A DNA stretch of 13,353 nucleotides from Clostridiales bacterium (GTDB taxonomy: Bacteria > Bacillota > Clostridia > Oscillospirales > QAMX01), in contig QAMX01000016.1 of the NCBI GenBank assembly GCA_003149835.1, positions 1-13,353 of the forward strand. Reading direction: 5' to 3'. The translations under genes and the position numbers were made by a program. Each line of letters starts with the position of its first letter. Position 1 is the stretch's first letter. This document shows, piece after piece, positions 1,880 through 13,353 of this stretch. Under the pieces are notes generated by a model that was given only the letters and a program-made list of their open reading frames with translations, made no database searches and was not told the DNA's origin.

Positions 1880-2629
1880 TCAATACCGTTCAAACATATC
1901 GTTTTCGGCGTTGTAAAGATAGGCCGACAATCCGTCAAAGGAGATGGCGAAGCGGCGCATAATGCTGCCGGGGTCGGCGGCGCTGGAAACGGAAACGTCG
2001 TAATAATGCTCGTCGCCGATGACGATAACGTCGTTGAGCTGCGCTTCCAGTTCAATGGTCGCTTCGCCCAGAATGCCGTAGGTGAGGTTGATCGCGTACA
2101 CCTTGGCGTCCTCGGCGGACAGCTCGCCCTCTTCGGGTTCAGGCAGCGTCGGCTCGTCCGGCTGATAGGCGGTTTGACCGGAAAGGTCGATGCCGAACTG
2201 TCCGGCGCCGTCTCCGACCGTTACAAACAGCGCTTTGTCGCGGCCGTAATTCTGGCGAATGGTCAGGTATACGCTGTCGAGCAGACCGCGCAGCGCCTCT
2301 TCCGATTCGCTTTCGGCGAGCGCCGAAGCGCTGCCGAAAACGACCCGCGCCTCCGACGGAGTGACCTCGGCGCTGAGCAGATCGAATTCGACGCCGAGCT
2401 GCGCGGCCAGAGCGGTGAGAATGGCGGCCGGCGTCGTGTCGCCCTCGTACCCGTAATAGGCGGTCGCAGGAGTCCCCGTGCGGTTATCGACGAGAACAGC
2501 CGTGTAAGTCTGCGCCTCTTCCGGCTGCCCCGGCGTCGTCGCGGAAGGGTCGCCGTTTTCGCCGCAGGCGGCGCAGGAAAAAAGGAGCGCAAGAGCCAAG
2601 AGCGCAAGGGTCAGTCGTTTCATAAACAT
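1880..2629 (-). CDS. Lipoprotein with GerMN-like domain
   Basis: The 249-residue product starts with MFMKR, a hydrophobic stretch and LFSCAAC, giving a likely lipobox with the lipidated Cys at 19 (alternatively 22), then a Pro/Gly/Thr-rich linker. Residues about 40-150 contain a pattern resembling the GerMN domain of spore-germination and sporulation lipoproteins: a strand pair, a helix with SEEALRGLL, SVYLTIRQNYG and a VTVGDG turn followed by FGIDLS. The remaining 100 residues form an acidic segment (PEPEEGELS) and a beta-rich C-terminus I do not recognise. It probably sits on the outer face of the membrane. I chose ATG 2629 because GGAGG lies 10 nt upstream; TTG 2635 and ATG 2623 are alternatives. 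It begins 45 bp after rex on the same strand, so the two are probably cotranscribed. The GerMN assignment is by eye and moderate. Confidence 0.72.
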   Translation of the reverse strand: MFMKRLTLALLALALLFSCAACGENGDPSATTPGQPEEAQTYTAVLVDNRTGTPATAYYGYEGDTTPAAILTALAAQLGVEFDLLSAEVTPSEARVVFGSASALAESESEEALRGLLDSVYLTIRQNYGRDKALFVTVGDGAGQFGIDLSGQTAYQPDEPTLPEPEEGELSAEDAKVYAINLTYGILGEATIELEAQLNDVIVIGDEHYYDVSVSSAADPGSIMRRFAISFDGLSAYLYNAENDMFERY

Positions 2630-2674
2630 GGTCAATGTTCCTCCAGGAGAAGCGCCGCGGCGCGCACAGAAAAA

Positions 2675-12038: not shown

Positions 12039-12061
12039 GTCTGATAATTTTGGTCTGATAA
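12035..12061 (+). repeat. Tandem near-duplicate just before the guaA ribosome site
   Basis: TTTTGTCTGATAA (12035-12047) is followed directly by TTTTGGTCTGATAA (12048-12061), the second copy having one extra G. The second copy runs into the AAGGAG ribosome site (12060-12065). Confidence 0.65.
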
Positions 12062-12073
12062 GGAGAAGAACCG

Positions 12074-13353
12074 ATGAAACAGGATATGATTTTGATCGTC
12101 GAGCTCGGCGGCAAGGAAAATGCCGCGCTGGCCCGGGAAATCAGAGCGATGGGCGTCTACACCGAGATTCATCCGCACGATCTCTCCGCGGAGGCGCTTG
12201 CGGCGCTGCCCAACGTCAAGGGCGTTATCTTCGGCGGCGGGCCGAACCGGTTTGTGAACGGCGTCGCCATCGACGCGTCGGAGGCGATCTATGCCAGCGG
12301 CCTGCCGATTCTCTCGTTTGATCACAAGGGTTCGGCGCCCATCCCCGCCGACGCGGCCGAGCGCCGCGCTGTGCTTGACCGGTTTGTTTTCGGCGAATGC
12401 GGCGCGGAAAAGAACTGGAACATGGAAAACTTCATCGCCGACCAGATCGAGCTGGTGCGCGAGCAGGTCGGCGACGGCAAGGTGCTGCTGGCGCTCTCCG
12501 GCGGCGTCGATTCCTCGGTGGTCGCGGCGCTGCTCGTCCGCGCCATCGGCGAGCGGCTGACCTGCGTTCACGTCAATCACGGTCTGCTCCGCAAGGGCGA
12601 GCCGGAGGAGGTCGTCCGCGTGTTCCGCGGAGAACTGGGCGCAAACCTCATTTATGTCGAGGCGCAGGACCGCTTCCTCGACAAGCTGGCCGGCGTGAGC
12701 GATCCTGAACAAAAGCGCAAGATTATCGGCGCGGAGTTCATCCGCGTTTTTGAAGAAGAGGCCCGCAAGCTCGAAGGCATTGAGTTTCTTGCGCAAGGGA
12801 CGATTTATCCGGATATCATTGAATCGGGGACGAAGGTGGCTAAGGCCGTCAAGGCGCACCACAATGTCGGCGGCCTGCCGGATGATATGCAGTTCAAGCT
12901 GGTCGAGCCGCTGAAAATGCTGTTCAAAGATGAGGTCAGGCGCTGCGGCGAGGCGCTCGGCCTGCCTTCGTCGATGGTAAACCGTCAGCCGTTCCCCGGG
13001 CCGGGTCTCGGCGTGCGATGCCTCGGCGCGATTACCCGCGAGCGGCTGGAAGCCGTCCGCGAGTCGGACGCGATTCTGCGCGAGGAATTTGCGCTGGCCG
13101 GCTTAGAAGGAAAGGTATGGCAGTATTTTACGGCGATCCCGGATTTCTGTTCCACCGGCGTGCGCAATCACGCCCGTTGCTTTGAGTGGCCGGTCATCAT
13201 CCGCGCCGTCAACACCGTAGACGCGATGACCGCGACGGTCGAGCCGCTCGACTTTGCGCTCCTGCAAAAGATCACCGCCCGCATCCTCGCCGAGGTCAAG
13301 GGCGTCAACCGCGTCCTCTACGACCTCTCCCCGAAACCCGTCGCGACGATTGA
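12074..13353 (+). CDS. guaA: GMP synthetase with truncated glutaminase domain; last few codons lie beyond the window
   Basis: GuaA converts XMP to GMP with ATP, normally using ammonia from its own glutaminase domain. ATG 12074 has AAGGAG 8 nt upstream, and 426 codons are open to the right edge, ending PVATIE, close to the usual KPxxTIEWE terminus; the final TGA bases are out of frame. The synthetase part is intact: LSGGVDSS ATP-pyrophosphatase loop (141-148), HGLLRKGE (169-176), GTIYPDIIESG, RQPFPGPGLGVR and AINVRYD-like end GVNRVLYDLSPKP. The N-terminal class I amidotransferase part is not: residues 5-80 follow the family (MGVYTEIHP, GGGPN at 54-58), but at the catalytic Cys motif GICYG there is SFDHKG, and only about 20 residues lead to AVLDRFVFGECG, which matches the domain's end. 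The His/Glu region is absent. Expected length is about 428 residues against 510-525 for the family. It should depend on free ammonia or another glutaminase. Confidence 0.95.
   Translation, partial: MKQDMILIVELGGKENAALAREIRAMGVYTEIHPHDLSAEALAALPNVKGVIFGGGPNRFVNGVAIDASEAIYASGLPILSFDHKGSAPIPADAAERRAVLDRFVFGECGAEKNWNMENFIADQIELVREQVGDGKVLLALSGGVDSSVVAALLVRAIGERLTCVHVNHGLLRKGEPEEVVRVFRGELGANLIYVEAQDRFLDKLAGVSDPEQKRKIIGAEFIRVFEEEARKLEGIEFLAQGTIYPDIIESGTKVAKAVKAHHNVGGLPDDMQFKLVEPLKMLFKDEVRRCGEALGLPSSMVNRQPFPGPGLGVRCLGAITRERLEAVRESDAILREEFALAGLEGKVWQYFTAIPDFCSTGVRNHARCFEWPVIIRAVNTVDAMTATVEPLDFALLQKITARILAEVKGVNRVLYDLSPKPVATI

Follow-up and report, generated by a model that had tools for sequence, protein, structure and literature searches.

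Bacterial GMP synthetases are described as carrying both of their domains, the glutaminase (GATase) and the ATPPase or synthetase domain, on one chain (PMC10526850, PMC9312489). The ATPPase unit is also reported to run on external ammonia in vitro: according to Table 1 of PMC10526850, the ATPPase subunit of M. jannaschii alone reaches a kcat of 1.91 s-1 with NH4+ (Km 4.1 mM), and the glutamine-driven enzyme 1.94 s-1. As the same paper gives Km values for NH4+ of about 4 to 174 mM for the characterised GMP synthetases, free ammonia would have to be plentiful for this route. A search of the open literature by titles and the openings of abstracts found no paper on a glutaminase-less bacterial GMP synthetase, and searches with exact phrases likewise returned none.

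Here we describe a guaA gene at the edge of a 13,353-nucleotide stretch of DNA from a Clostridiales bacterium (contig QAMX01000016.1; hereafter the window), which a first-pass annotation had read as an intact synthetase joined to a GATase domain lacking its catalytic half. We consider it probable (roughly 0.76) that its product is a conserved GMP synthetase which, having lost the glutaminase catalytic core, aminates XMP with free ammonia.

The shortened GuaA of the window

The guaA frame is open on the forward strand, on which all parts described below lie, from the ATG at 12074 to the window edge at 13353. Its 426 codons bear out the clean frame that had been claimed; the edge cuts the gene, the predicted ammonia-dependent GMP synthetase (12074..13353), which has 429 codons in relatives. 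On a reading of the sequence, AAGGAG (12060..12065), 8 bases 5' of the ATG, is the likely ribosome-binding site. Residues 1-82 (12074..12319) are a retained first half of the GATase domain that stops immediately ahead of where the nucleophile cysteine would be, as delimited by profiles (which reach positions 1-76 only), alignment, the structure model of the relative P0002 and dN/dS. The Pfam GATase profile covers only residues 10-80 (profile positions 4-76 of 190), and guaA_Nterm only residues 6-80 (positions 1-74 of 188), with 41.7 bits against a cut-off of 172.15. In an alignment with eight full-length GuaAs, everything from GICYG through the HPE segment is wholly absent, and with it the Cys-His-Glu triad; GICYG and HPE are present in all 32 full-length comparison rows. 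About 15 variable residues (83-97, DHKG...R; 12320..12364) occupy the place of the missing core, a junction placed by alignment and dN/dS. Beyond it, residues 98-118 (12365..12427) retain the end of the GATase, around FVFGECGAEKNW, which aligns with the matching full-length segment and runs into the synthetase.

The loss of both catalytic motifs with retention of both domain ends is thus as first described, and two details of that description change. SFDHKG had been given as the replacement of GICYG; DHKG does belong to the replacing segment, but SF is the end of the retained strand. The shortening itself is real, but the figure of 85-90 residues gives way to a net loss of 77-87, since 141 residues precede the P-loop in the short form and 218-228 in the full-length proteins.

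The remaining residues, 119-426 (12428..13353), form intact ATPPase/synthetase and dimerisation domains, as had been proposed and as comparison with solved GMP synthetases supports: TIGR00884 (guaA_Cterm) matches with 440.8 bits over a cut-off of 338.75, from profile position 1 to 307 of 310, up to the window edge. In the SGGVDSS P-loop (residues 142-148; 12497..12517), S142, G143, G144, D146 and S147 are invariant in 69 aligned rows, and V145 and S148 are found in at least 90%. The residues that PMC10526850 names as required for adenyl-XMP formation or XMP binding map, by motif and spacing in a mapping of our own, to D247, E250, K260, H262, H263, R368, R413, K421, I426 and E427, and all ten are invariant across the 69 aligned rows, which include full-length, short and bare (GATase-less) forms. 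The named residues of the lid segment D247..E250-S251..K260..H262-H263-N264 (12812..12865) are invariant in the same rows, their roles being taken, through the same mapping, from the Plasmodium counterparts described in that paper.

No RNA element scored above the Rfam gathering score in the window or in seven relatives' loci. The other window genes tested, between 909 and 11742, are ordinary-looking; the window encodes a xylose-isomerase-like TIM barrel, a Rex-like DNA-binding/CoA-binding protein, a member of the isocitrate dehydrogenase family, TsaD, a GNAT acetyltransferase, a low-MW phosphatase, an Ig-domain protein and, assigned by reading only, DNA polymerase I. The frame at 1880-2635 (-) has no Pfam match.

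Recurrence, descent and selection of the short form

A search for the same form in related genomes, suggested in the first-pass annotation, was positive. Among 121 stored proteins (the query and the best 120 of 7994 scored matches), 111 are exactly 429 aa long, and a scan of one-genome-per-species records with the N-terminal part found at least 531 stretches encoding a relative. The best 80 of these loci were fetched; 72 hold a complete short gene, and the other eight hold none by the rule used. They come from Flavonifractor, Intestinimonas, Lawsonibacter, Agathobaculum, Oscillospiraceae and others, with many gut or rumen bins, the named records being mostly metagenome bins. The same shortened form in so many records is not chance, and an assembly deletion of about 260 bp, which had been named as a possible refutation, is excluded by this recurrence. 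In a phylum-wide draw of 81 genomes, the GMP synthetase frames were mostly full-length and the sole frame recognised as belonging to the short family was that of the centre genome, G002; the draw also included frames of 422 aa (G218) and 456 aa (G179) and six of 324-345 aa. One short guaA (L001:3001-4287) lies near the end of a 73.8 kb IMG/VR viral contig, perhaps in the host flank of an integrated element, and two proteins, P0003 and P0016 (539 and 481 aa), repeat a block within their synthetase half, probably through assembly errors.

A tree was built from 80 synthetase-domain rows: 37 short forms (33 of 81 locus genes and four proteins), 32 full-length forms and 11 bare forms, in which the GATase is wholly lost and a new short N-terminus opens a protein of 326-333 aa counted from the first Met. 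Short and bare forms (47 rows) sit beyond a single branch of length 0.8 with support 100/100, and the eight full-length GuaAs from the same order make up a separate clade (99/96). Ten of the bare rows form one clade (99/99) nested among the short forms; the eleventh, an archaeal GuaAb (L034), falls outside the clade of short forms and has a long branch. The simplest history that we infer starts with a single old duplication, after which the GATase core was lost once and then, at a later stage, the remnant, likewise once. In the alignment, four bare proteins (L086, L089, L097 and L100) have in common a new N-terminus of about 20 residues (M..N.RPE.M.RI.T..L) that replaces the remnant. A further kind of GATase-less synthetase frame was seen in G054, G250, G256, G279 and G266, with 53-56% identity to the window protein over residues 113-426. 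The locus of the archaeal GuaAb, on a 162-kb contig of a MAG titled Methanomassiliicoccus (L034:9006-12108), encodes GuaAb, a short GuaA of bacterial type and GuaAa consecutively, with purE adjacent; the short GuaA appears to have been transferred from a bacterium into this archaeal purine cluster.

Database naming does not separate these forms. The model for glutamine-hydrolyzing GMP synthase, NF000848, accepts the window protein (515.4 bits, cut-off 400) and every other protein scanned, three short and two bare in all; since the two bare proteins pass (460.0 and 449.0 bits), the model does not test for a glutaminase, and the name 'glutamine-hydrolyzing' is misleading for short and bare GuaA.

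The remnant is under purifying selection: its median dN/dS is 0.123, compared with 0.087 in the synthetase and 0.41 in the junction (here residues 85-103), over 641 pairs with dS between 0.15 and 1.2 from the 61 of 80 sequences with 426 or 429 codons. These values bear on the reading that the short gene is a decaying relic, or the product of an assembly deletion, which was raised at the outset for the case that a full-length guaA should lie elsewhere in the genome. Such a gene does accompany the short one in 12 of the 21 relatives' genomes that have the short form. Its presence does not, however, reduce the short copy to a relic, because the two belong to separate clades, that of the short form being deep, and the short copy is under purifying selection (dN/dS 0.12 for the remnant); the listed frames contain no stops, and the same form stands in many independent records. 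We reject the relic and give this whole reading next to no credence.

The P0002 model has a mean pLDDT of 88.2, and residues 1-80 score 84-96 in blocks of ten, with the remnant modelled as strand-helix-strand-helix-strand. Its nearest solved folds are GMP synthetases. Values below 50 (in segments of three or more residues) are restricted to the lid, within 248-267, a loop that PMC9312489 describes as disordered in the known unrotated structures, the human one excepted. In P. falciparum the lid residue Glu374 is reported to contact His20 of the GATase (PMC10526850); as a position that early in the GATase would fall within the part retained here, the remnant may by analogy still pack on the lid. 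The bare clade went on to lose the remnant altogether, which suggests that this part is dispensable; the reaction probably does not require it. A new role for the remnant as a dimer or docking surface, as first proposed, gains from its conservation and confident fold and loses from its absence in the bare clade.

Genome repertoires and the search for a glutaminase

To describe repertoires we used a complete listing of the 117 genomes in the order of genome G016, tallied by hand with no completeness filter, with G062 (a partial short form) excluded and G261 counted as bare by alignment despite a longer frame. The short form occurs in 21 genomes, 12 with and nine without a full-length GuaA, and the bare paralogue in 36, of which 17 have a full-length GuaA and 19 do not. 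One or the other is present in 57 genomes, and 28 of these 57 show no full-length GuaA.

Some short-only cases are explained by assembly gaps. In G014, first counted as short-only, a GuaA-type GATase match (136 bits) is cut off by the end of its 4,475-base contig; given this case, and as guaA is often near a contig end, the short-only count is somewhat inflated. A second set, the order of G002 at 95% completeness or more, gives a measure of such gaps. There, 140 of 148 genomes have a synthetase domain and 110 a GuaA-type GATase (E 1e-33); the 38 without the latter are made up of eight without any synthetase and 30 with one, the 30 including at least one case (G049) at a contig edge. Because only eight of 148 genomes lack a GMP synthetase match, we judge gaps unlikely to account for the 28 of 57. 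The guaA gene is used as an integration site by integrative elements, which may cause contig breaks near it, and it appears in papers on such elements. Five contigs (L085, L091, L093, L094 and L095) end within 1.3 kb past a guaA, and the short guaA has a tyrosine-recombinase integrase at a distance of about 1 kb in one locus (L007:12358-13470) and of about 8.5 kb in another (L025:345-1496). In L102 (G121:C12) a full-length guaA has one in-frame TAG in its GATase part, either a broken gene or a sequencing error.

A separate glutaminase could supply what the short form has lost. The short GuaA might be the synthetase half of a two-part enzyme, in which a glutaminase of some other type than GuaA binds to the remnant and supplies ammonia derived from glutamine; archaeal GMP synthetases are split into two subunits (PMC10526850), the archaeal locus described above sets GuaAb, short GuaA and GuaAa side by side, and the conservation of the remnant is what a docking surface would lead one to expect. 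Against this, no GATase of the GuaA type reached the cut-off in the 28 relatives' genomes where a short or bare form stands alone, in a search that covered the GuaA type only, and no common neighbour gene was seen by eye in seven loci; the bare clade, moreover, has no remnant to dock on. We regard a two-part enzyme as unlikely. The same null result runs counter to a GuaA-type version of the separate glutaminase partner that the first-pass annotation had offered among its three readings, and to the stand-alone GuaA-type glutaminase for which it had proposed a search. Remnants aside, the strongest GATase match in these genomes (G045, 103.7 bits) looks by eye like TrpG, and a similar protein in G017 is named TrpG by NCBIfam. 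A GATase-like match of 69.7 bits in G064, in a 261-aa frame, falls below the GuaA-type cut-off, and a glutaminase from another family might act in trans.

The genomes with both enzymes bear on a further reading, that the short protein, instead of making GMP independently, assists or regulates full-length GuaA, or that it acts on a substrate other than XMP. In three loci (L056, L083 and L084) the short gene lies directly behind a full-length guaA, and short and full-length forms differ by fixed differences in ten alignment columns, such as F/Y to H at 166, in a comparison from which the archaeal GuaAb row was dropped. None of the ten checked ATP/XMP residues, all invariant, is among these columns, however, and in nine of the 21 short-form genomes the short GuaA is the sole GMP synthetase found; such a role thus seems improbable to us. 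Tandem pairs of full-length and bare guaA also occur (L086 and L087).

The distribution of repertoires over the tree was examined in 31 genomes picked by their loci, 14 of which gave a single match. Among the nearest tree neighbours of the window gene, the four with a tested repertoire (L013, L014, L024 and L042) each yielded the short form alone. The 'short only' label is patchy, with 14 changes, and was rejected as a single event on the tree; among 500 shuffles of the labels, 28 gave values as low for 'only' and 47 did so for 'both', with L010, L018 and L023 (no complete gene) omitted and with L029 (short and bare, no full-length) and the wrongly labelled L048 taken in under 'only'. An IMP dehydrogenase match is present in 27 of the 28 genomes with only short or bare forms (20 over the cut-off). 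We dropped it as proof of an active pathway, as it is not discriminating: 14 of 17 genomes in which no GMP synthetase was found have one as well.

Predicted function and comparison with known enzymes

With its synthetase residues intact, its glutaminase core gone and no partner of the GuaA type above the cut-off in the 28 genomes, the short GuaA is most simply explained as an ammonia-dependent GMP synthetase, and this is the best supported of the three readings first offered. In the mechanism that we propose, the ATPPase half would adenylate XMP using ATP, as other GMP synthetases do, and the adenyl-XMP would be attacked by ammonia from the medium rather than by ammonia channelled from glutamine. 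The remnant, which preserves the initial strands and helices of the former domain, would remain packed against the synthetase, acting as a lid or supporting the dimer. Genomes with both enzymes might split the work by nitrogen supply, and in those without a full-length GuaA, GMP synthesis would depend on ammonia alone.

One may postulate a broader scenario, which we advance tentatively and hold to be somewhat short of an even chance: a bacterial order could have evolved a dedicated ammonia-only GMP synthetase by the stepwise dismantling of a duplicated GuaA (full, re-fitted half, none), with the new enzyme displacing the glutamine enzyme in many gut lineages and the synthesis of guanine nucleotides, and with it growth, coming directly under the control of ammonia. 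The half GATase might in that case have been re-used to guard the adenyl-XMP site or to sense nitrogen.

GMP synthetases that lack a working glutaminase occur in many species of one bacterial order, among them many gut Clostridia, and are frequently a second copy. If the prediction holds, this bears on nitrogen use in the gut and on metabolic models, and glutamine-analogue inhibitors would miss the short enzyme. The natural series of full, half and no GATase also allows the role of each part of a glutamine amidotransferase to be tested.

Compared with the two-domain GuaA (NF000848; E. coli 1gpm), the short form has in common the synthetase half, the adenylation and XMP residues and the first part of the GATase; it differs in having neither nucleophile cysteine nor HPE segment, in its shorter length and in forming a clade separate from that of the full-length GuaAs in the same order. 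In the archaeal two-subunit enzyme, GuaAb (M. jannaschii 6jp9, P. horikoshii 2dpl) is accompanied by a partner gene for GuaAa, whereas the short form keeps half a GATase and no GuaAa scored over the cut-off in the 28 relatives' genomes with short or bare forms only. NH3-dependent NAD synthetases are among the weaker structure matches returned by Foldseek and VIA-align. We know of no half-domain glutaminase remnant in NAD synthetases. The ammonia- and glutamine-dependent NAD synthetases described in PMC3376133 act on another substrate and, unlike GuaA, draw on another glutaminase family (nitrilase-like), but they present the same choice, ammonia or a fused glutaminase, on a related synthetase fold.
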